Part shown: piece after piece, positions 1,816-47,492 of the stretch
Numbering within the stretch: position 1 is the first letter of the stretch
How the letters are laid out: every line of letters starts with the position of its first letter
IMG/VR virus record: IMGVR_UViG_3300044712_001255
Coordinates: 248,001 to 312,000 of that record
Source of the DNA: a virus
Length of the DNA: 64,000 bases
Reading direction: 5' to 3' (one strand)
Made by a program: the position numbers and the translations under genes
Notes under the pieces: generated by a model
What the model saw: only the letters and a program-made list of their open reading frames with translations
What the model was told of the DNA's origin: nothing
Database searches by the model: none

Positions 1816-1992
1816 ATGAGAATTACGCTCGGTGAGTTGAAGGCGCTTATTCATGAGGCGGCATCGAATGATCGTGGTAAGTGTCAAAAGTGTGGCAAAA
1901 TTGTGATGTTGACCGACGACGGGTTAATTGATCAACACGACGATTGTCGTGGGGCTGGCGTAAAACCTGTTTCGACGGCACCACTTACGTAG
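1816..1992 (+). CDS. small zinc-ribbon-like protein with shared N-terminal tag, 58 aa
   Basis: Starts MRITLGELKALIHEAA, an amphipathic leader that recurs on unrelated proteins in this window (see findings). It continues with a CQKCGK motif, then HDDC, which could bind one zinc. Follows the previous stop by 7 bases. Function unknown; the tag hints at a virion or processed protein. Confidence 0.55.
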   Translation: MRITLGELKALIHEAASNDRGKCQKCGKIVMLTDDGLIDQHDDCRGAGVKPVSTAPLT

Positions 1993-2989: not shown

Positions 2990-3769
2990 TTACCCAATGA
3001 TCTTTTTGATTATTCGCTTGATTGCTTCTGTCACAGTTTCTATACGCCCACCCTTACCACGAACGCGTGACATACCAAGATCTATCAACACCAATTCACC
3101 GGTGTCAGGTCGCTTCATCATATTTCCTGCGTGGTAGTCGTGGAAGTCTATTCCGATCGCAGTTAATGTCTGGAAAAGATCACGTAGGTGAAATTTTGTA
3201 ACAAGCAAGTTCCACGCTGCGTTTGCTTTCTTAACAAATTCTTGTGCTTCTGGCGTAGAGATTCCACCAAAATCTTTCTTAGCTTTCGCGGCAATGTGTG
3301 ACTTCGTCTTCTCTTTCACAACAGACCAATCACCACCGCTCTTCGCCATCCACAGGGGTACAGCTGTCGCTATTAGCGCGCTATTGAACTCTTTTCCGTC
3401 TGCGTCGCTGATTGGTTCCAGCTTTTCTTGCAATATCGCAAACACGTTGGAATCGCCTAACTGCCATACGCCGAATACTTTTACCACGCCAGGAACATCA
3501 CCACCCAGGCCTGTCAACGCAGCGGACGCCGCTGCTTCTTTTTCATCATTTGTAACTTTTAAGACCTTACCGTCAGGCGTTTCTAACGCTGTACCACGTG
3601 TGCCCGTCGCAATTGTCTTCAATGATGACGCGTCAGATACGCCAATCTTCTCAAGGAATTTTGGAAATTTTGATAGCAACTGCGTAGATTGTGATGCGTC
3701 GACTGGTGATGAATTGATTGCTTCTTTGATCAACTTGCGAATATGACCTACTGTGGTGACGAATCTCAT
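2990..3769 (-). CDS. protein-kinase-like protein with N-terminal tag (kinase A)
   Basis: 259 aa from the ATG at 3769 (MRFVTTVGHIRKLIKEA, the shared tag). Kinase features in order: Gly-rich loop GTRGTA at about residues 56-61, Lys71 in VLKV, hinge-like FAILQEKLEP, catalytic loop HDYHAGN at 210-216, metal-binding DLG at 230-232. Only 27 residues follow DLG, so the usual C-lobe after the activation segment is missing; this resembles aminoglycoside-phosphotransferase or atypical kinases. Expressed from the opposite strand to its neighbours, divergent from the gene at 3822. Substrate unknown. Confidence 0.7.
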   Translation of the reverse strand: MRFVTTVGHIRKLIKEAINSSPVDASQSTQLLSKFPKFLEKIGVSDASSLKTIATGTRGTALETPDGKVLKVTNDEKEAAASAALTGLGGDVPGVVKVFGVWQLGDSNVFAILQEKLEPISDADGKEFNSALIATAVPLWMAKSGGDWSVVKEKTKSHIAAKAKKDFGGISTPEAQEFVKKANAAWNLLVTKFHLRDLFQTLTAIGIDFHDYHAGNMMKRPDTGELVLIDLGMSRVRGKGGRIETVTEAIKRIIKKIIG

Positions 3770-3821
3770 AGGGTTACTTATGGTCGTGAGCGTATTCAAT
3801 GACAAGAAGCTAGATATTGAT

Positions 3822-4295
3822 ATGAAACCAACAATCATCTTCGTTTCTTCGAAATCGTGGGTGTCGAAGGCAATTCAATTCATCACCGGCGGCAACGTAA
3901 CACACGCAATAATCGGTGGATTTACAATCGAGAGTGCCGACATTGTTATGCATTCTGCAACGAGCGGCGTCGCATTTTTGCCTCGAGAAAAAGCTCTCGT
4001 TGGTTGTGACATTGTAGGTGAATTTGCAATTTCACATGACGTTAACATCAAGCAGTTACTGAACGATCTTGGCCAGCCGTACGATTATCTCGAAATGCTT
4101 GGATATGTGTGGGTTTATCTAGGAAAATTGATCAAACAACGTTGGCATAACCCACTGGGTTCGTCGCAAAGTTTCGTATGCGTTGAACTCATAATGTCAA
4201 TGAATCTTCCGGAATTAAATCAACTTGACAAACACGCAACGTCTCCGCAAGATCTGTACAACGCGTGTAGTCTGTGCTATGATAGGATAAAATAA
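3822..4295 (+). CDS. permuted NlpC/P60 (YiiX-like) cysteine hydrolase
   Basis: 157 aa from ATG 3822 (MKPTIIFVSSKSW). The His motif VTHAIIG near residue 28 comes before the Cys motif FVCVELI near residue 120; this order is that of circularly permuted papain-fold proteins (YiiX/YebB type), which act on lipids, amides or peptides. Lies between two kinase-like genes. The start was chosen because the upstream ATG would overlap the divergent kinase gene and its leader. Confidence 0.55.
   Translation: MKPTIIFVSSKSWVSKAIQFITGGNVTHAIIGGFTIESADIVMHSATSGVAFLPREKALVGCDIVGEFAISHDVNIKQLLNDLGQPYDYLEMLGYVWVYLGKLIKQRWHNPLGSSQSFVCVELIMSMNLPELNQLDKHATSPQDLYNACSLCYDRIK
4264..4293 (+). promoter_or_regulatory. 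phage promoter, CGTGTA-N18-TAAAAT
   Basis: CGTGTA at 4264-4269 and TAAAAT at 4288-4293, inside the end of the preceding gene. The next ATG is nine bases after the -10 box. Confidence 0.45.
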
Positions 4296-4302
4296 GCGCA
4301 CT

Positions 4303-4638
4303 ATGGCTCGATGGTTGTTGTGGCTTGATGATCAAGCCAATGATATTGACACACCTAATCGCCACCCACCACAAGGATACACAGCGGCGACGTCATCTCA
4401 TGATGCCATTGCGTTAGTGTTGGCGAAGGGCACACCAGAATTCATGGATCTTGACCATGATTTGGGCATGTTAAATGATGGTACTGTCGATGACGCCTTG
4501 CGTTTCTTGACTTGGTTACAAGAACACGCGCCAGAACCTATTCGTTATCGTGTTCACTCGCAGAATCCAATAGGCGCTCAACGCATTCACGCTTTTATGA
4601 AATCGTGGCGACGTTGGTGGCTGTCACAAATCTCATAA
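4303..4638 (+). CDS. cyclic-phosphate-processing receiver-like protein (cREC)
   Basis: 111 aa. WLDD near the N-terminus, FMDLDHDLG at about residues 46-54 and YRVHSQNPIGAQRI near 85-98 are the hallmark motifs of the phage and bacterial cREC family, a receiver-like domain proposed to process cyclic phosphate ends of RNA. This agrees with the RNA ligase and HAD phosphatase genes elsewhere in the window. Its 3' end overlaps the convergent kinase B gene by six bases. Confidence 0.7.
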   Translation: MARWLLWLDDQANDIDTPNRHPPQGYTAATSSHDAIALVLAKGTPEFMDLDHDLGMLNDGTVDDALRFLTWLQEHAPEPIRYRVHSQNPIGAQRIHAFMKSWRRWWLSQIS

Positions 4639-5706
4639 TCCAAAAAACAGCCCGGGGTCAGAGATGACAAGCACGTCTTTTTCTCCGGGCCGCGCCATGA
4701 CGTTATCGCCATGCATATCGCCCCATTCTATGCCCATTTTTTGGCTCAACCAATTTAGCGCTACATGAAATGATCGTAGTTCGGGGTGCTGTTTAATCTT
4801 CTCAACGTCAACATCACGTTCACCAAATTCCATTGGAATCGGCGCTACAACGTTCTTTGTCAAAGCTCTATCGAATTCTACGAAGAAGTATTGTAGGTTG
4901 CGTTCATCAAAATTCTGGCCGCCAAGATCTTTAATCATGTCAACCATCGTTCCCGTAATCTTATCTCTTTCCTTTGTGATTTGTTTGATCACTTGGTCGA
5001 TATCCCATATCGACTCGTCGGCGTCAGAGTAAGCCTTTGGAGGATTGCTACGAACTATCTCTTTGATTTTTGTTACGAATAGGTTGAATGCTTTTGCTGC
5101 TGCATTGCGTGGTAAATTAGCAACGCACCCCTCCCAGAGATCTTGTAAATCATCGCTTTCTAAAAACGCTACAATTCGTTGGTAAGAAGCGTTCTCATCT
5201 AGTTCATAGCTATCAAAAAATGACGCCATCGCTCGTGACATAGGAATCAATGGTTCAACAACGATATACCAAAATGGATGAGTGGGTGATTTAAGCCTCT
5301 TTGAAATCGCAGTTTGCTTTCGTTCGCTTGGAATTTCTCCTATCTCTAAAATGTTCACCATGTGACGTTTCACAATGTCTGGCGCGGCTTCTCGAGCCTT
5401 TTGCCACTTTGCGTACGAGTCAGCCTCTTCTTTTGAGGTGATTTTTGCAATTGCGCGCTTGTTGTGCCAGAGTACTTCATGAGCCGTGCTGTACGCTCCA
5501 GAGCCGACAAAACCCATACCATGATGATCTCCGTCGCCCCTTGGTATTGGAATAAGTCCAACTGACAACAGACGTTTATCGTCTACGCTATTTGACGATT
5601 GCGCCCATTGCAATAGCTTCTCACGATAGAATTCGTCTCGCCCCTTTTCTTCCATGATGACGTTAATCATCGAACGTAACTGTCTAATCGTGATTTGCAT
5701 CATCAT
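4633..5706 (-). CDS. protein-kinase-like protein with N-terminal tag (kinase B)
   Basis: 357 aa from the first of three consecutive ATGs (MMMQITIRQLRSMINVIMEE, the shared tag). Gly loop GFVGSGAYST at about 65-74, Lys88 in AIAKI, hinge WYIVVEP, catalytic loop GDMHGDN at 329-335, and DPG at about 350 only eight residues before the end. As in kinase A the metal-binding motif lies at the extreme C-terminus. Overall identity with kinase A looks low, so these are diverged relatives, not recent duplicates. Confidence 0.7.
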   Translation of the reverse strand: MMMQITIRQLRSMINVIMEEKGRDEFYREKLLQWAQSSNSVDDKRLLSVGLIPIPRGDGDHHGMGFVGSGAYSTAHEVLWHNKRAIAKITSKEEADSYAKWQKAREAAPDIVKRHMVNILEIGEIPSERKQTAISKRLKSPTHPFWYIVVEPLIPMSRAMASFFDSYELDENASYQRIVAFLESDDLQDLWEGCVANLPRNAAAKAFNLFVTKIKEIVRSNPPKAYSDADESIWDIDQVIKQITKERDKITGTMVDMIKDLGGQNFDERNLQYFFVEFDRALTKNVVAPIPMEFGERDVDVEKIKQHPELRSFHVALNWLSQKMGIEWGDMHGDNVMARPGEKDVLVISDPGLFFGL

Positions 5707-5711
5707 ATCTA

Positions 5712-5741
5712 GGTGTAGACGTATCACGCGTAATGTATCAT
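5712..5741 (+). promoter_or_regulatory. phage promoter, GGTGTA-N18-TATCAT
   Basis: GGTGTA at 5712-5717 and TATCAT at 5736-5741, in the divergent interval between kinase B and the lipoprotein gene. The ATG at 5748 is six bases downstream, which also decides that start over the in-frame ATG at 5733. Confidence 0.65.
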
Positions 5742-5747
5742 AAGAAC

Positions 5748-6218
5748 ATGATCAAGCGTTGGTACGCGTTATTGCTTACGTGTGTTGCGTGCGGAAGCGC
5801 TCATCCTTACGACGGGTGGGACGGAGATCCAAATTATCGAGTCGCAGCGCCTGGACAGGGCGGCATGGCAACCGTTGAATACGTACCTGGGCCGTTCTCA
5901 AGATGCTCTCGATACGATTATATCTGCGCGAATGACCCGTCTGGAAAGTTTCATGCGTACAACGGTGATAGAGATCAGGTTGGCGCTGTACTACGTGATC
6001 CAAACGCTTGCGTTTCAATTCGTGCTGTGACACATGAACCGTCAGAGTGTTGCACCCCACTTGGTACGTGCGAAATCAATAAGGCGTTGGGTCTGTGCGG
6101 CACCGGACAGGTATACGTGTTGAACTGCGAGGCTACGAGTGATTTTGCAAAGCAACGTAGTTGTTCTGTGATTCCAAATGGTGGCGTGCCGTTTCCGGCA
6201 CTTTGCTGTACTTTGTAA
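5748..6218 (+). CDS. cysteine-rich secreted lipoprotein
   Basis: 156 aa from ATG 5748. Signal peptide MIKRWYALLLTCVAC followed by GSAHP: a positively charged n-region, a hydrophobic core and a lipobox-like LTCVAC. The mature part has more than ten Cys, including two CC pairs, suggesting disulfides in the periplasm or envelope. No family recognised; superinfection exclusion is one possible role, by analogy only. Confidence 0.6.
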   Translation: MIKRWYALLLTCVACGSAHPYDGWDGDPNYRVAAPGQGGMATVEYVPGPFSRCSRYDYICANDPSGKFHAYNGDRDQVGAVLRDPNACVSIRAVTHEPSECCTPLGTCEINKALGLCGTGQVYVLNCEATSDFAKQRSCSVIPNGGVPFPALCCTL

Positions 6219-6226
6219 GGAACGTA

Positions 6227-6715
6227 ATGATAAAGCTAGACAGTGACAAGCACCTGAACATTAAGATTCGTATCCAAGTCTCTGAGGTTGAGACTGGAAA
6301 ATTCATTGACTCAGATGACGTAGATACCACAATTCCAAGTTACGAAGTTCTTGAGTGGTTCACCAATTATGGACGTGCCATTACCTCCGTCTTCTGCGCG
6401 AAACAAAATGTTGGCATTCGCATAACTGGTCCTGCCGATCGCAAGATATTACAAATCAAGACTCTACGTGAAATGGGTATTGAAGTCGCCGGATACGTGG
6501 GATTGCGTGAAGCGAAGGACGCAATTGAACAAATCGATCGTGGCCCACACATGGTAATCGCAGGATTGTCGACCACGGGTATTGCTCGCATTCAGTCAAT
6601 TGCGCAAGCTGCTGGGGTGTCAATCGAACTTGCTGCGACGACATCAACAATCGCAGAAGGAAGAAATCAACAGCAATCACAATATGTCATCATGCTAACG
6701 GCGAAATCTGAGTGA
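6227..6715 (+). CDS. ribosomal protein bL12 (L7/L12) C-terminal-domain-like protein
   Basis: 162 aa. Residues about 70-140 follow the bL12 C-terminal pattern: DRKILQIKTLREM, then GLREAKDAIE (compare the conserved GLxEAKxxVE), a Pro-containing turn, and AQAAGVSIEL at the end of the domain. The N-terminal ~65 residues are not the usual L12 dimerisation domain. bL12 homologues are known from viral genomes. Could bind elongation factors or replace host stalk protein; this is inference. Starts nine bases after the lipoprotein stop. Confidence 0.6.
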   Translation: MIKLDSDKHLNIKIRIQVSEVETGKFIDSDDVDTTIPSYEVLEWFTNYGRAITSVFCAKQNVGIRITGPADRKILQIKTLREMGIEVAGYVGLREAKDAIEQIDRGPHMVIAGLSTTGIARIQSIAQAAGVSIELAATTSTIAEGRNQQQSQYVIMLTAKSE

Positions 6716-8762: not shown

Positions 8763-9209
8763 ATGGACAACATTGCGTTGCTGCGGCACATCATTCTCGA
8801 CGAGGCTAAGAAGATTCAAAAGGCGAAGAAAGCCAAGGTGAAGCCTTGGGATGAAGCGCCAACAGGTGAAGGCGAAACCCAAGACATGGGCGATACCAAG
8901 GATGCCAAGGTTGGCGACAAGGCAAAGCAAACTGCTTGGGAAGATGGCAAGCCAAAGGGCAAGCTAAAGGCGACTCGTGCCACCGAGCGTAAACTTACGG
9001 CCGAAGAATTGCGTCGTCTTGTTATTGACGAGGCCAAGAAGGCTAAGGCGGAGAACGCGTCTGTTACGTCAGCCCGCACGCCGTTGGAAGATCCGGATCA
9101 AGTTCCTGAGCTTCCGTGGGAAAAGGGAATGCGTAAGAAGGGCGAGCACAAGCATGCCGTGAAGCAGGAAAGCGTTCTCAAAGGCCTTGCTGATTCGCTA
9201 GAGGAGTGA
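8763..9209 (+). CDS. Lys/Glu-rich tagged protein with two LRxxIxDEAKK repeats
   Basis: 148 aa from ATG 8763. Two copies of a helical motif, LLRHIILDEAKK at about 6-17 and ELRRLVIDEAKK at about 83-94, joined by a disordered Lys/Asp/Gly-rich linker. Composition and G+C-rich codons differ from its neighbours, suggesting high expression. Could be an internal head or scaffold-type protein; this is inference from composition and the tag. Confidence 0.55.
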   Translation: MDNIALLRHIILDEAKKIQKAKKAKVKPWDEAPTGEGETQDMGDTKDAKVGDKAKQTAWEDGKPKGKLKATRATERKLTAEELRRLVIDEAKKAKAENASVTSARTPLEDPDQVPELPWEKGMRKKGEHKHAVKQESVLKGLADSLEE

Positions 9210-9592
9210 TGCAAATCACCCTTGGACAATTAAGAACCATCGTGCGGCGCACGTTGTCCGAGCGCCGCCGTGGACACCGTAGACATCACTCACATTCATC
9301 GCATGGTCATGGTGGATTTGGCCCGGGTGATATCTTCAGCTGGGGATTGTTCGGTGGGTCAAAGGATTACGGTGGTTCTGAACCTGGGAGTTATTCCGGG
9401 GGCGGCTCGTGGGACATGTACGGCGGCTACGGAGACTATGGATATGGAGCGTATGCTTCTGGACACCATTATCACGACCCGCGCACAGACCCTGACGTTC
9501 CGGAGTTCATGAGGCCCTCTGGTGGAGTCACGGCAAGTACACATTCAGATGATTTTATGGATTTTGATGATGATTCTGACGGATTTGACTGA
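9209..9592 (+). CDS. tagged His/Gly/Tyr-rich low-complexity protein
   Basis: 127 aa. ATG shares its A with the upstream TGA. Tag MQITLGQLRTIVRRTLSE, then RRRGHRRHH, a Gly/Tyr/Asp/His low-complexity core and an acidic tail (DFMDFDDDSDGFD). The core resembles prion-like or metal-binding sequences. Likely co-expressed with the preceding tagged protein. Confidence 0.55.
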   Translation: MQITLGQLRTIVRRTLSERRRGHRRHHSHSSHGHGGFGPGDIFSWGLFGGSKDYGGSEPGSYSGGGSWDMYGGYGDYGYGAYASGHHYHDPRTDPDVPEFMRPSGGVTASTHSDDFMDFDDDSDGFD

Positions 9593-34694: not shown

Positions 34695-34928
34695 ATGCGT
34701 ATCAAGGTTGGTGAACTTCGTAAGTTAGTGCGTGAATCGTTGGAAGGGCCAACAGCCTGGAGTGATTTGCCACGAATTGAGCAGATCAAGTCAGAATATT
34801 CGGACATCTACAAGGAAAAATTTGGCATTCGTCCAAGATGGAAGCTAGCAGAGCTTGAACAGATGTCGTTAGAAGACGCAGAGGCTGTTCTTCAGGAACT
34901 TCTTGACACGCCGGGTGATGAATTTTGA
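34695..34928 (+). CDS. small tagged protein, 77 aa
   Basis: Begins MRIKVGELRKLVRESLEGP, the recurring leader; the rest is acidic and helical (KLAELEQMSLEDAEAVLQEL). No family recognised. Likely a small virion or packaged protein if the tag has that role. Confidence 0.55.
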   Translation: MRIKVGELRKLVRESLEGPTAWSDLPRIEQIKSEYSDIYKEKFGIRPRWKLAELEQMSLEDAEAVLQELLDTPGDEF

Positions 34929-35632: not shown

Positions 35633-35934
35633 GCGATGGTAGCAAATTACACATTCAATCTCTTCTAGAAGGAATTCCCGTCAAATTTCGTCCTCACGGC
35701 AATAGCATGGTGCCAATCATTTACAGCGGTCAACTTGTGACGATCTCCCCCTTGACGCGAGAACCAGAAGTTGGTGACGCAGTGCTATGCAAGGTTCGAG
35801 GGCGACAAATGTTGCATAAGGTAATTGCAATTGGCAGTGACGGACGTTTCCAAATTGGGAACAATCATGGTCTCATCAACGGGTGGTGCACCAGACAAAA
35901 TATTTTTGGCGTCCTTACCTGTGTCGAACCATGA
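35629..35934 (+). CDS. S24/S26-like peptidase-fold protein
   Basis: 101 aa. FRPHGNSMVPIIYSGQLVTI carries the G-x-S-M-x-P of signal-peptidase/LexA-like folds (Ser at about residue 26); EVGDAVLCKV, then HKVIAIG and QIGNNHG follow in the order seen in S26 and S24 enzymes. A Lys in HKVI could be the general base. Could process a phage protein or be an inactive relative. Confidence 0.6.
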   Translation: MSDGSKLHIQSLLEGIPVKFRPHGNSMVPIIYSGQLVTISPLTREPEVGDAVLCKVRGRQMLHKVIAIGSDGRFQIGNNHGLINGWCTRQNIFGVLTCVEP

Positions 35935-38374: not shown

Positions 38375-41300
38375 TTAGAAGTTGATTGGACGCCAGACTC
38401 CATTCAGATAAATGAAGTTTCCTTGACGTGCGTTCATGCGAATTTGACCATTTCTTGGGCTCGCGGGCGCCGAGAAGTCGGCGAATGCTGCGGCAGATGG
38501 TGTGAATGCTTGTCCCTTATATCGAGCCCAACCAGAAACACGTACTTCGTCCATGTATCCTAACATTGGTTGACTAATGATGCCACCAATTCTTATACGA
38601 TCTCCGCCGTACATGTATGGAACATATGCTGTAGCTGTTTGGAACGTTCCATCAATGGCCATTCTTACTATGCCATCGTATCGTTCAACACATATATGAT
38701 GCCATGCGTTCAATCCAATCGTTGTAATTGTTGAATTTGATGAGAATGATCCAGCCCACGTACCAGGTGTGATAGACCACGCAAATGACGGTTTGCTATT
38801 ACTTGTTTCAACATAAATGATTGGACCAATTTGATCACCACCAGCTGCGTTGGTGGCAGCGAACCACATGTTATAACCCGTGCCAGACGTAGGATACGCC
38901 CAAAACTCTATTGTGAAATCACCAAATTCTGGGAAGAATGTTGTGTTGGTCACTGTCAAATAGTTTGCAGCATTATCACCAGTATTCAATGACGTTGAAC
39001 CAAATTTCTTTTGTGTTGAACTGCGTGTGGGTGAGCCGGCGGCAGTTACTGTTTGATTACCAATACCTGAATCTGTCCAAGCCGCACCTTCAAAGTGAAG
39101 GTGCAAGTAGTTTAAACATGTGTCAAGCGTAAGAGGAGTCGTATCACTAATTGGATCAACGTAACTGAATGGTACGCCATCGTCAGACGCCGCTGGCGCT
39201 GGTACGCCTTTCAATCGTTTTGAATATAGATTCAATCCATCATTTTCAAATTGATAAGCAGTAACGCCGTTCAAATATACGGATGCGACTGTACCCGCCC
39301 TTATGGATGTCCTAAATAACGTCCATGAGCCAAGCGCTACGCCGCCGCCAGCTTCAACAACGTCTGTCGATAGAATATCAGTGAGACCGCCATACCCTGA
39401 GCGCGTCGTTATCACTGATTCGCCGTCAGACACTCTGATGAGACCAGATGTTGATCCTGAATACGCTGCTCGAGCAGAATACAATGCGTCTCTTGCAACC
39501 CAAGAACCACTGACATTTTGAATCAATTGATTATTGATTCCAGACGGTAACGTCCCAGAAAATATCTGTAGAAGCGTTTTGCCAGTAGGTATTGTTTCGT
39601 CTGTAAACAATAATGATTGATTTACTCGAGTTAATTTGATGCTTGACGTACCAAATTGAACATCGTTAGACGTTATTGTAATAGAACCAGTACCAACTGT
39701 AAGTGATCCTGAAATTCTTACATCACCCGCAAATAGCGCAATTTTGCGATTTGATCCTGATGACACTCCGACAGACCCAGAGACATAAAAGAATACGTCA
39801 CTCCCGGCTAATGATCCAGAATCAAGAAATTGTGTAGGAGAACCAAACGCGACAGAACCTGTTGATAACAACGAACCGCTAAAGTCCATCCATCCGGCAA
39901 ATGATCTTCGTCGTGTAAAATCCGCAAATTGCTCAGTTGGAACTGAGAATGCAACAGGGTATCTGTCTATGCCAACCGTTATTCTAACATCGTCAATATA
40001 TCCATTAAGCGTTCTTGCGCCGCCTGGGAAGTACGGGTAATGTCCAATCCAACACTTGGTGCTTGTGTACATGCTAGTCGCGTATGCGTATGTGCCGGCA
40101 TACACTCCATCGTACCAAAGTCGTATTTGACCACCACTTCTGCTTGCAGCGACATGATGCCAAGCACCTGCGGTTGGCGTAATCACCCCGCCTGGGCCAC
40201 CAGCCCACCCCACCCCAGCAGCAGATACAAGAAACTGTAACGTATTATTCGACTCAAGATAGAGTATTGGTCCCTGCCCATCGGCCGACGTTGCGAACAT
40301 GATAATCGGTTGATAGCCGACACTGACACTTGTGAACCAAACCCAACATTCAATCGTCCAATCACCTGAACCGAGCGTGATAACGCCACCAGAGTTATCA
40401 GCATATAACGTGTTTGTGTTAACTCCATTAAGACCTAATGATGTAGTGCCCCATTTCACCTGAGTGTTTGATAACTGAATTGTTCCCGCCGACGTCATTG
40501 TCATCGGATTACGAGAAGAATCTATCATTGTTGTGCTGCCATTTGACCCATTGAAATGTAGCAACAATTTAGTGTAATCAAAATATGAATCGCCCAAAAA
40601 TAACCCAGAATCACCGCCAGATGCCGTAGATGAAATAGTGACTTGCCCGTTTGATTGAGTCACTATCGCTATATTGCTGCCTGCTGTAAGATACGTTTGT
40701 CCGTTTGTAAGTTTTTGTAATGATCCTCTTAACCCACCAACAAAGTCTACATTACCAGTGAATGTAGCGCCTGATATTGTCGCAACAATGTCATCGTCAA
40801 TAGCAAGCGTGAAAAATCCCGCGCCCCCACCGAGTGGATCTACGACTTGATCATTGAGTTCTAATGCAATAAATGAAACATTATCAACAGTAGACGCATA
40901 GACGTTATCACCATTTTTTGCATATAACTCATACGTATGAGTTCCTGCTGTAGGTGAATCTACAAATGTTATGAATGATGAATTATACGTATATGATGTT
41001 GAAGGAGAATTAGTAACGCCAGGATTCGTAACGCTTATTCCATGTACGGCATTGCTAAGTGGTTGGCCATCTCGATAAATGTTGAATACAGCTGACGCTG
41101 AGTAAAATGGCGTTGGCGTAGTCAGATAGAACGTATTAGCGCATGTTCCCATCAACAGAATTTTCTTACCAAGAGTTGATAGTGTGATGGAATTTGCAAT
41201 AGGTTGATATGACGATGATAACGTCATCGAATTTGATAGGAACGCTGAACCGTAGTTAACGTCAGGCGTTAGTTCGATCGCAATGACTTGTGAAAGTCGT

Positions 41301-43115: not shown

Positions 43116-46100
43116 TTAGATCACAAGATTACCGTTTGAATCAGTTGTGATGCTTTGTAAAGTTTGGTTGAGTTGTAGGGGATTGATTGTCGATCGATTG
43201 TGAGCTTCACCATCGAAATATGGTAATGATGACGTTGCTTCAAGACTTAGATTTGACGACCACGTGGTTTCTGGTTCAACGTGTTGACTTGTGATTGGGT
43301 TCACAAAACGAACTTGTACAGGTGAATCCTCTATGTTGTTATCAACAAACATTTTTGTGTCAATCCCTTGTTCAAGCATATCGCGGAATTGACCAAAACG
43401 ACCGCGACGAAATACGAGAGATGTGTTAGATGTTATTCCGCTGAACAGCCCGTATTTCCACCCACGAATCATTACACCATATACGTTATTTCGACCCCAT
43501 AGATCGACTGTCTTAAATTGTGGAAGATGATTTGCTCCACATCTTATCGTATTTGATGAAATATGTTGTAATGTAGAGGGAATTGTTTGTGTACCGTAAT
43601 TGGGATGAGAAAAATCAAAATCATTTCCATTCTTTACACCCAATGCAATGTTGTTTAGATCACCAAATCCAAAAATGATTTTACGTATTTCATCTCTAGA
43701 GATATTAACAGTTCCCGGACCACCTCGATACCACCACGCACCATTTGGTTCAAATTTTAGTGGCGAGTAAAATCCTGTAGGTGACGCATTTGCCCATCCA
43801 CCATAATAGACGTAAATGTTATGTGACGTCCTTAGCAAAACACTGGTGTTAATAACGTCTGGAGCAAGTCCATTCAAATTATATAGTGATGAATTCCAAT
43901 AACGATTGGTATCATAAACAGAAATGAATGGATCAAGTGATCTATCAATAGATGCGTATCTTGATTCAAATGGAAACCCAAATGGCCAATCATTATCGGT
44001 TATATTTGCCGTACCTGGTGTTGCTGGTGGTAATCCACACCAAGACCATAAAATACCACTTACACCGCCAAATTCAGTAGTTTCTGTTGACGTATCAGAA
44101 ATATTTGCAATTGGGAAATTTGTCTCTTGCAATAAATTTGAAAGTGAAGGAACAAATGAATCATAAATGATTTGTTGTGATGTCATTCTTACATTGCTGA
44201 TTATGCCTGCTACTTCGAATTGCTTGCGTAACGCAACATCTCTTTGCATCACCGTATCAGAATATAATTGATTGATGTCTGATAAATCATAGAAAGTATT
44301 TTGAGATGCACTTACAATATTGAATTGTTTTTTACGTTCCTGTAGGGACATAGATCCCGTGACATACGCGTCATTGTACGTACCGTAAAGCGCACGTCTT
44401 CCATAAACTTCAAATTGATCAAGTGCAGGATCATTACCAATAACATCGCTTATTATCGTAGATTGAAATTTCGTATTACGAACATCATGGAATTCTTTTG
44501 CTTCACGTAAGTAACTTCCAAAAAATGTGATCTTTACTGATGATCCTGATGGGATCTTGATGTCATGGCCTAATGTGCCAGTTACATAAAATCTATCATT
44601 AGGATCTCCACCTACGAATGTTGCTCGTTTCACGCATGGTCGTGTTTTACTCACTGCTAACGTAAGCTTTTGATTTGGGAAAATAACATATGGACTTTTT
44701 TGCGTTTGCATTACGCAAATGGGTTGTGTTAACGTAAATGACTGGGCTGCTAACGCAGATGATTTCTCTGTATCTGACATGTAGAAATACTTGTTTTTGT
44801 ATTTCAATGGTGATCGAGATGTAATTTGTTCACGACCAAAAATTGATTGTCCAGACCCGACAAATCCATCTTGGTTTCTTCCAATGTTATTGATCCAATT
44901 TATTCGGTAGTGATTATCATTTCCACCTACAAACAATTTTGTGTCTGTGGACGTTATGATGAATTCCTCTGTACTCACAAATTGAGAAAATCTTAATCTA
45001 TTGTTGTCTGTTCCGCCATTAAGCGCATCGAAACGTAACGTTCCGATGACCCCGTTGGTAATGGCACTCTCGGCAAGTAATTTAACACTACCTGTGAATT
45101 CATAATTGGATTTATTAGGATAAACAATAGTTGATGCTGATGGCAAAAATGAGTTTATGCCGCGAATTTGTCCAACTGCTTCCAACAGCGGCCAAATGAT
45201 TTCTGGACCTTGACTGCCAGTGAAGTCATTACAATTTGTTATTGTAGCAGATAGAATAAGCTCTTGTCGCGTTAGATTATTGTACGTAGTTTGAGCAAAT
45301 AGTGCGACCGTGACCAGCGGACCACCTATATCAATAAACGTGTTCTCCGTGCTTGTCCAATCGTATCCATATGGTTGCACGCAACGAGTTACGTCATCAA
45401 ACCAGGTTTTACCAGCCTCAAGAGGCAATTCAATCATTGCTTTTTCAATAATGAAAGGTTCATTGATTGGCAATGAAAATGTTTCCGTGTTTGACGGAAC
45501 GTACTCTTGATTTATGCAAATACTTTTTGCATACTCCTTTTGAATCGCAACATTGTAATTTTGCTCATTGAAAACATTATTGATATTGTCGTCAGATGAA
45601 TTTGCGATATAATACGGTGGTGCTGTTACAATTGCATCGCTTCCACTAACAATCAAATTGCCTAATGGACCAAATCCCCGGTAATCTTCTGACGTACGTT
45701 TACTATCGATATAAGCCATTCCGTCAGCGAGATCACTTGGATTTTTCACCAAAAATTGTTTATATCGAGTATCATAATACATGATTGAGCTTGTGAGCCC
45801 AAGCATCGGAGTCGTATATTGAATTGGAAGTTCAATATTGATTTGATTCTTTGATTGTAATGTTTCAGTGAGATCTGCGTTGGCATTCACAAAAAATACA
45901 CCATTTGGGGTGGTGATATCATCAATCATAATTTGACGATTGTGCTCACTAAATGGTTTAATTCTTGACCAATTTCGAGGATCATTCTCGGCGATTGAGT
46001 TGATGTCAAGCGTTGCAAACGTTGATCCTGTGGCTTGAATTGTCGTGCCACTTAGGATATCTTCAAGAGATTGAATTTGTTGTGTGTATCCGAGGTTATT

Positions 46101-47492
46101 ACGACTTATCATTGCAGGATATGACACAACGGCTTGAGTTGAGAATATTGTTGATTTTTGATCATCAAACATTCCAATCGAAACACTTGACCCATCATAT
46201 TTTGATGATACACGAGGAAGAAGCTTACGTCTCACCGCAGGAGGTTGAAACACTAATGATGTTGCATTTCCTTGTTGACAAGGCCAATCATACGCCGTCA
46301 ACAAATAGTTGTAGTACGTAGTTGGCATTGACCAGTATTTTTTGTATTGCGCAGGTGTGCTTATTCCACCAAGTGGATGACGTTCAACAGAATTTAAAGA
46401 TGAAACCATTCCCCCTAAAGATGGCGCCCATTCAGGGAATATCAATAATGAAGATCCAATATTGATTTCTGACGTAAAATCTCTAAACCCGTTTTTTGTG
46501 AAAACACCTACGCAAGCAGCGTGGTTTGATTCAAAGTTGTAATTTGCGTAAACACCCGTCTCTTTTATCTGTTCTCCCCCACGTAACTTACGATACGTAA
46601 ATTCTAGACGTCCATTCTCAAAAATTTTCAATTGAAATTGAAAACTTGAAGAAATTGTAGGTACTTTCATCTCAAGATCGGCATACGTTATATGATGAAA
46701 CGAACACCATTGAATTGCTCTATAAAGACCATGTACTGTGTCTGATAGAACTTGTGTCCATCGCACTCCTGCTTTTGAGGGTGAGAAAATTAAATCTGGG
46801 GGTTGTGTCATCCCATAATGAATCTTTTCTACAAGATCATCAGAGTTATATCCCCCCAAATCTACAAGCGATTCATAGTAAATCGATCCAGATAACGCAC
46901 CCGTATTAGGGATCACCTCATTTTGATATTTTGATCCACTAAGATTTGCAATGTAATTAACGGGCGTAGATCCTAATGAGGCAAGGCTATTGGACGGTAA
47001 TGTTGGACCATTTATTTGATAGTTGTCAAGATTAATAGAAAACCATGGTGCAACTAATACACCGTCAAATGTCATGTTCAAATTGATTGAGTGCGGTGAA
47101 CCTGGACCCATACAATTTGTGGGAGAATAAAGATCACGCGCCATTGTATTCCACAATGACGAACTAACGTGCGTAAGTAGATCAGGGTTTTTGCCAATAA
47201 TGCAATATCCTGACATACTGATAACGATATGATCGTATTCTTCACCATTCATACGAAATGAAAAGCCAAGAGGAATAGGCAACGACTGTGGTTCTGTGTG
47301 CCATGTTGTGTTATCAGTTCCAACGTACCCAACTAACGCAACTAACCCGCCAATAGAAGGATCATGTACGGTAGTTGCAGGAATCTTTGTGAACAACGCA
47401 TCATCTAACATCGCCGTGTTGGATACTCTTTTCAACGCGTAATCGTTGATATAGTTTGTGCGTGTTCTTTGTACTTTAGGTGTTGCAGGCAT
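43116..47492 (-). CDS. large virion protein, 1458 aa
   Basis: Beta-rich, Asn/Ser/Thr-rich, no catalytic motif seen. Near residue 75, PLGFSFRMNGEEYDHIVISMSGY resembles adhesion-type sandwich domains. Expected to be a tail, whisker or baseplate-peripheral protein from its position in the virion operon. Its start overlaps the upstream stop by one base. Confidence 0.7.
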   Translation of the reverse strand: MPATPKVQRTRTNYINDYALKRVSNTAMLDDALFTKIPATTVHDPSIGGLVALVGYVGTDNTTWHTEPQSLPIPLGFSFRMNGEEYDHIVISMSGYCIIGKNPDLLTHVSSSLWNTMARDLYSPTNCMGPGSPHSINLNMTFDGVLVAPWFSINLDNYQINGPTLPSNSLASLGSTPVNYIANLSGSKYQNEVIPNTGALSGSIYYESLVDLGGYNSDDLVEKIHYGMTQPPDLIFSPSKAGVRWTQVLSDTVHGLYRAIQWCSFHHITYADLEMKVPTISSSFQFQLKIFENGRLEFTYRKLRGGEQIKETGVYANYNFESNHAACVGVFTKNGFRDFTSEINIGSSLLIFPEWAPSLGGMVSSLNSVERHPLGGISTPAQYKKYWSMPTTYYNYLLTAYDWPCQQGNATSLVFQPPAVRRKLLPRVSSKYDGSSVSIGMFDDQKSTIFSTQAVVSYPAMISRNNLGYTQQIQSLEDILSGTTIQATGSTFATLDINSIAENDPRNWSRIKPFSEHNRQIMIDDITTPNGVFFVNANADLTETLQSKNQINIELPIQYTTPMLGLTSSIMYYDTRYKQFLVKNPSDLADGMAYIDSKRTSEDYRGFGPLGNLIVSGSDAIVTAPPYYIANSSDDNINNVFNEQNYNVAIQKEYAKSICINQEYVPSNTETFSLPINEPFIIEKAMIELPLEAGKTWFDDVTRCVQPYGYDWTSTENTFIDIGGPLVTVALFAQTTYNNLTRQELILSATITNCNDFTGSQGPEIIWPLLEAVGQIRGINSFLPSASTIVYPNKSNYEFTGSVKLLAESAITNGVIGTLRFDALNGGTDNNRLRFSQFVSTEEFIITSTDTKLFVGGNDNHYRINWINNIGRNQDGFVGSGQSIFGREQITSRSPLKYKNKYFYMSDTEKSSALAAQSFTLTQPICVMQTQKSPYVIFPNQKLTLAVSKTRPCVKRATFVGGDPNDRFYVTGTLGHDIKIPSGSSVKITFFGSYLREAKEFHDVRNTKFQSTIISDVIGNDPALDQFEVYGRRALYGTYNDAYVTGSMSLQERKKQFNIVSASQNTFYDLSDINQLYSDTVMQRDVALRKQFEVAGIISNVRMTSQQIIYDSFVPSLSNLLQETNFPIANISDTSTETTEFGGVSGILWSWCGLPPATPGTANITDNDWPFGFPFESRYASIDRSLDPFISVYDTNRYWNSSLYNLNGLAPDVINTSVLLRTSHNIYVYYGGWANASPTGFYSPLKFEPNGAWWYRGGPGTVNISRDEIRKIIFGFGDLNNIALGVKNGNDFDFSHPNYGTQTIPSTLQHISSNTIRCGANHLPQFKTVDLWGRNNVYGVMIRGWKYGLFSGITSNTSLVFRRGRFGQFRDMLEQGIDTKMFVDNNIEDSPVQVRFVNPITSQHVEPETTWSSNLSLEATSSLPYFDGEAHNRSTINPLQLNQTLQSITTDSNGNLVI

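Follow-up and report, generated by a model that had tools for sequence, protein, structure and literature searches.

Short tagged kinase-like proteins of a jumbo phage with a T4-type head module as probable virion cargo

Why would a phage encode two kinase-like proteins that end shortly after their D-x-G motif and begin with the same N-terminal segment? This question arises at positions 2990-5706 of the stretch analysed here, a 64,000-nucleotide window (G000:C1:248001-312000) of an IMG/VR virus record of 324,468 bases; 45 tRNA genes lie within the window alone. A first-pass annotation of the letters had read the locus as two tagged kinases with a reduced C-lobe, placed on either side of a permuted NlpC/P60 hydrolase, and had suggested that the kinases might enter the host with the DNA, like T4 Alt. 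We interrogated the fold, the N-terminal tag, the upstream regions, and the relatives of these proteins in order to understand what they may do. Our preferred reading, to which we give a probability of about 0.62, is that they and a third paralogue are small Ser/Thr-type kinases carried inside the virion, ejected, and active in phosphorylating the host.

Results

Kinase A is a tagged protein of 259 aa encoded on the minus strand (2990..3769), with ATG 3769 as the best start and the stop at 2990. It contains a Gly loop (GTRGT), the lysine of VLK, the loop HDYHAGN, and DLG. Five other viral contigs carry relatives, which represent three distinct sequences at 51-54% identity, and the four-phage alignment shows TGTRGT, KVLKVTND, GIDFHDYHAGNMM, and LVLIDLGMS to be invariant. 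Both the catalytic loop HDYHAGNMM (3116..3142, minus strand) and the D-L-G metal-binding motif (3074..3082, minus strand), 27 residues from the C-terminus, are among the invariant positions. Because they are unchanged across four phages at this level of identity, we do not attribute the motifs to chance. The PHROG profile phrog_18305 points to kinases with an E value of 0.0034, and one of the relatives reaches 1.6e-5; Pfam has no match for kinase A or kinase B. AlphaFold2 modelled kinase A from the four sequences with a pLDDT of 84 and a pTM of 0.77. All PDB matches listed for this model are protein kinases or kinase-like phosphotransferases (best Foldseek E 3.8e-6), and the alignment with PKR (Z 9.4, 141 residues, rmsd 3.6) stops just past D-x-G. 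BFVD matches include T7-type 'protein kinases' together with many phage proteins of 146-250 aa. Structure prediction thus shows a protein-kinase-like fold for kinase A. A scan of bacterial and archaeal genomes with kinase A gave no relative. PADLOC PD-T4-6 gave marginal matches only, which we took as generic kinase similarity.

Kinase B is a tagged protein of 357 aa on the same strand (4633..5706), starting at ATG 5706, 5703, or 5700 and stopping at 4633, with the motifs GSGAYS, an AK lysine, GDMHGDN, and DPG. Its catalytic loop DMHGDN (4702..4719, minus strand) aligns with DMHSGN of T7 gp0.7 at 46% identity over 28 columns, and the protein matches phrog_15752, the T7 kinase family (E 7.5e-4). 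The AlphaFold2 model, built from two sequences only, reaches a pLDDT of 60; this low-confidence model aligns with IRE1 over 142 residues (Z 10.3), and its matches are kinases or kinase-domain proteins. A kinase-like fold is therefore likely for kinase B, at low confidence and with the model in a supportive role only. The fold search that the first-pass annotation had proposed as a check accordingly returns a kinase fold for both proteins, firmly for A and at low confidence for B.

Two kinases were annotated and both are real, but the genome encodes three in all. Kinase C, a tagged kinase-like paralogue, lies outside the window, about 1.3 kb upstream (G000:C1:245688-246662, or 5688-6662 of stretch L003, minus strand; search match G000:C1:246159-246665). 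Kinases B and C are 23% identical (E 6e-22) and have in common the tag, the Gly loop, Lys, Asp, Asn, and SDPGLF, which includes the D-P-G motif of kinase B (4651..4659, minus strand). Since K, D, N, and SDPGLF are shared at such low identity, these motifs are unlikely to be accidental either. In kinase C, SDVRRCN replaces the usual HxDxHxxN loop, so that the catalytic-loop His is lost and the enzyme could be weak; a kinase-like fold is nonetheless likely. All three proteins keep Lys, the catalytic Asp, Asn, and D-x-G, and in kinases A and B the Gly loop, beta3 Lys, catalytic Asp and Asn, and D-x-G follow one another in order, as had been annotated. Scans of viral contigs with kinases B and C found no relative, and the relatives' records that were searched yielded no homologue of B or C, with no positive control for that search. 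Among 50,697 phage records, searched at both the DNA and the protein level, no relative of kinases A, B, or C was found, and a PDB sequence search returned matches at chance level only.

The early end after D-x-G was also read correctly: 27 residues follow it in kinase A (19-20 in its relatives), 5 in kinase B, and 9 in kinase C. Kinases A and B do not have the activation segment and helices F to I that complete the C-lobe of a full-length eukaryotic-type kinase domain, and the structural alignments of both models, which superpose the N-lobe and catalytic core on solved kinases, likewise finish just past D-x-G. Truncation by a frameshift or an assembly error was ruled out, as the endpoint of kinase A is nearly identical in four phages and B and C end alike. 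Extra helices precede the catalytic loop, about 80 residues in kinase A and an insert of roughly 150 residues in kinase B, and they may stand in for part of the missing C-lobe.

The same layout is found in T7-type kinases. Nine of them, several free-standing at about 243-244 aa, have the motif order of kinases A and B and end 5-30 residues past ITDP in the stretches compared, where the count for T7 gp0.7 covers its kinase domain only. Like kinases A and B, T7 gp0.7 (phrog_15752) has a Gly loop, Lys, a DxHxGNxM loop, a D-P/L motif 16-20 residues on, and 5-30 residues after it. Profile alignment with hhalign against the nine gave P 2.3e-5 and a probability of 76% for both profiles, below a firm family assignment, and extended over the whole domain of kinase A and over the catalytic end of kinases B and C. 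T7 gp0.7 is a phage protein directed at host control, as kinases A and B probably are, and the substrates that it phosphorylates include RNase III, translation factors, and the beta' subunit of RNA polymerase (PMC4858673). Because an active Ser/Thr kinase shares the layout, a reduced C-lobe is ordinary for phage kinases and is no argument against activity; the annotated reduction is correct in that the sequences stop after D-x-G, but it is not an oddity. Unlike kinases A and B, T7 gp0.7 lacks a packaging tag, is synthesised in the cell at an early stage, and has in T7 a C-terminal transcription shut-off domain (PMC4858673). The helical inserts before the catalytic loop are longer in A and B than in T7 gp0.7. 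Among bacterial effectors, OspG/NleH and HopBF1 are injected minimal kinases with a reduced C-lobe; they offer a parallel to the phage proteins in general outline, and they differ in being delivered into eukaryotes by bacterial secretion systems.

The N-terminal tag was scored with a position-specific matrix (PSSM) trained on tagged non-kinase proteins, with the kinases left out. Kinase A scores 16.8 (MRFVTTVGHIRKLIKE followed by A; 3722..3769, minus strand; IKE site, residue 16), kinase B 12.3 ((MM)MQITIRQLRSMINVIME followed by E; 5646..5706, minus strand; IME site), and kinase C 14.2, whereas about 0.3 matches at >=12 and 0.05 at >=14 are obtained when the whole window is shuffled. The annotated common start of A and B is therefore borne out by a kinase-free model. 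Residues 1-18 of the kinase A model have a pLDDT <50, which places the tag outside the confident fold, and a tag-like N-terminus is preserved in the homologues of kinase A from related phages.

The tag, with a consensus of about M-K/R-I-T-x-x-Q/E-L-R-x-L-I-x-E, is common to at least 14 otherwise unrelated proteins, a number that is a lower bound since the genome was examined in stretches; the bodies behind it are mostly unmatched. In the window, all on the plus strand, it begins a small CxxC protein (1816..1992; MRITLGELKALIHE followed by A; PSSM 30.1), a His/Gly-rich protein (9209..9592; MQITLGQLRTIVRRTLSE followed by R; PSSM 28.1; LSE site), and a 77-aa protein (34695..34928; MRIKVGELRKLVRE followed by S; PSSM 28.9) with TAGTTA 10 nt upstream. 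A tag-like N-terminus (MDNIALLRHIILDE followed by A) opens the frame at 8763..9209, with TATTTA 11 nt upstream; this frame also has a second, internal tag-like copy, ELRRLVIDEA. The same matrix also picks out tagged proteins in genome stretches beyond the window.

Three core genes of the phage's own head block, at 35750, 41606, and 42143, also carry the tag. This block has the order terL-portal-S77 protease-scaffold-MCP. The syntenic head block of one relative (G002) has the tag at the same three places; in another (G004) two of these places are tagged, as are two additional genes next to the capsid gene. At 40563-40979 the genome encodes an S77 prohead protease of T4 type (E 3.7e-26), which is also present in two long related records, and at 45063-46706 a major capsid protein of gp23 type (E 3.5e-59); since both are there, the head is probably assembled in the T4 manner.

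A motif of the S77 prohead protease type, [LIV]xE, occurs at residues 14-20 in 13 of the 13 tags scored, compared with a mean of 4.1 after shuffling (0 of 20,000 shuffles reached 13), a statistic that is partly circular because the motif has Glu in most training sequences. Four tags, those of the gene at 9209, of stretch L022, and of kinases B and C, lack the usual Glu; their site follows after roughly one more helical turn, and only these are independent of the Glu built into the motif. In T4, the internal proteins and Alt bear cleavable N-terminal segments, and Alt is cut at ITE and LTE (PMC5694885). The tag resembles them in being a short N-terminal segment that ends in a prohead-protease-type site, and the genome resembles T4 in pairing an S77 protease with a gp23-type capsid protein, although the tag consensus is not the T4 sequence. 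Computation strongly supports the tag as a T4-type capsid-targeting sequence.

Upstream of the tagged genes we found a promoter-like element. TAAGTA lies 11 nt before the start of kinase A (3775..3780, minus strand), and TANTTA or TAAGTA is placed mostly 10-14 nt ahead of the ATG of tagged genes (1806, 3780, 8752, and 34685 in the window; 4658, 6673, and 7492 in L003; 9109 in L013; several in L020). In the phage's own genome TANTTA precedes 8 of 14 tagged genes (10 of 14 with TAAGTA) versus 11 of 162 other genes (p 8e-6). The relatives have it before 8 of 13 tagged versus 8 of 73 other genes, with the caveat that the TANTTA form was refined after both genome sets had been viewed; the form fixed on the phage's own genome, TA[AGT][TG]TA, precedes 4 of the relatives' 13 tagged genes. 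Untagged genes with the element include those of an endolysin and of a 1573-aa tail-fibre/baseplate-like protein, and the upstream region of kinase B is without it. TANTTA is a candidate late promoter, suggesting late expression of kinases A and C, and its distance to the ATG suggests leaderless or nearly leaderless messages. No T4 late promoter TATAAATA was seen ahead of tagged or head genes, and GTATAA/TATACT is enriched before starts generally but not before tagged genes.

Kinases have been detected by proteomics in virions of the cyanophages S-CREM2, S-CRM01, S-TIM5, and S-CBWM1, and co-purification was not excluded by the authors (PMC10665884), so that true cargo versus contaminants had been left open. 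We examined two regions of S-CREM2 (GenBank OR473000; L039, L041). The S-CREM2 kinase, detected in virions by mass spectrometry, starts with VKRFDAFLTE, and similar N-termini are found on the SAM hydrolase (MKDFDSFLEE), the NMNAT-like protein (MKNFSSFLTE), gp13 (MKDLHSFLTE), and the Cas9-like protein (..RFASFMAE). Thus, the non-structural virion proteins detected by mass spectrometry (kinase, SAM hydrolase, Cas9-like, and NMNAT-like), along with gp13, share a T4-like segment, F-x-x-F-[LM]-x-E, which is carried by 0 of 15 undetected proteins in the same two regions. This distribution speaks for the S-CREM2 kinase being genuine cargo and for the existence of tagged kinases inside T4-like particles. 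The S-CREM2 kinase also opens with a targeting-type segment (FxxFLTE), but is 756 aa long with a long C-terminal part after D-L-G, whereas the proteins described here are 259-357 aa and stop at D-x-G. Packaged kinases, as the first-pass annotation had imagined them, would hence have a precedent in cyanophage virions, and the tag behaves as a T4-type capsid-targeting sequence would.

Discussion

The fold, the truncation, and the shared T4-type-like tag together make an Alt-like delivery route plausible. Alt is an ADP-ribosyltransferase, whereas the tagged proteins here are putative kinases. What we computed are the fold, the catalytic residues, the shared tag and its presence on head-core genes, the cleavage-type motif, the protease gene, and the promoter-like element; packaging, cleavage, ejection, catalytic activity, and host substrates we infer. 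In outline, the kinases would be transcribed together with the late genes, and their N-terminal tag would dock them on the prohead core, alongside scaffold-side core proteins. The S77 prohead protease would then cut after [LIV]xE and free the kinase inside the head, from which it would be ejected with the DNA. Host proteins could in this way be phosphorylated before any phage gene is expressed, the role of T7 gp0.7 but exercised at entry. The phage thus probably loads its kinases into particles, injects them with the DNA, and modifies the host at once. Such proteins would belong to a known kind, the virion-associated phage kinases, here in a short, T7-like form and in three copies. The more general proposal is tentative, and we place it slightly below even odds: a jumbo-phage lineage with T4-type heads would inject several truncated T7-type kinases at once by means of detachable core-docking tags, their genes being read from a late promoter class of their own that lies 10-14 nt ahead of the start codon, and phosphorylation of the host would thus precede phage transcription.

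Because T7 gp0.7, whose fold and layout these proteins share, is an early, newly made protein, one may ask whether they are ordinary cytoplasmic kinases that act after synthesis and whose N-terminal segment is a docking helix with no part in packaging. We think this improbable, since the same segment is found on head-core genes of three phages, beside an S77 protease and with a cleavage-type motif, and since the promoter-like element of the tagged genes also precedes endolysin and tail genes. The tag does group the kinases with core proteins, which are largely degraded in T4 (PMC5694885), and they could accordingly enter the prohead core only to act on core or shell proteins during assembly or to be destroyed, with no effector ejected. 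A single cut at the tag, however, leaves a whole kinase, and homologues of B and C were not found in relatives with the same head module (again with no positive control), a pattern more like that of accessory effectors; a purely assembly-related role is accordingly doubtful.

The chemistry itself could differ, the proteins being pseudokinases or APH-like small-molecule kinases that bind ATP for regulation or phosphorylate metabolites, whether packaged or not. Kinase domains of the ABC1, APH, UbiB, Bud32, and LanL types are among the weak matches of kinase A, the DxHxGN loop resembles that of APH and ABC1, and the loss of the catalytic-loop His in kinase C points the same way. Against this, Lys, the catalytic Asp, Asn, and D-x-G are retained in all three proteins, and the same loop occurs in T7 gp0.7, a kinase that acts on proteins (PMC4858673); we therefore regard such a function as unlikely. 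Under the preferred reading of injected protein kinases, host phosphorylation would rank among the first events of infection. A targeting segment, a protease site, and a late-type promoter element would further form a sequence rule that predicts the injected proteins of jumbo phages, and cargo lists could then be read from genomes.

Other features of the locus and genome

The ORF between the two kinases (3780..4295, plus strand; the start may be 3831) has no tag and runs on the opposite strand, so that its position is what ties it to the kinases. It had been annotated as a permuted NlpC/P60 hydrolase. Its His (NVTHAIIG) does precede its Cys (FVCVEL), read by eye, although motif order alone is weak evidence, and it matches phrog_1128 (E 8e-6), although the name of that family is unrelated; Pfam, NCBIfam, and the PDB gave no match. 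The gene is thus a candidate for a permuted papain-like hydrolase, an assignment to which these data lend weak support. At 4303-4638 (plus strand), beside the kinases in this tRNA-rich region, is a cREC_REC domain protein (Pfam PF20274, E 1.6e-16); receivers of this type process cyclic phosphates and are linked to RNA repair.

In the head block, the portal-like ORF at G000:C1:36287-39592 (L013; 1101 aa) has an HNH-like stretch and intein-like ends, suggesting that the portal gene is interrupted by an intein, and G002 has a 1503-aa ORF at the portal-like position. The gp23 capsid family has a second, short match at G000:C1:185435-185548 (E 1.2e-7), in a 155-aa frame far from the head module.
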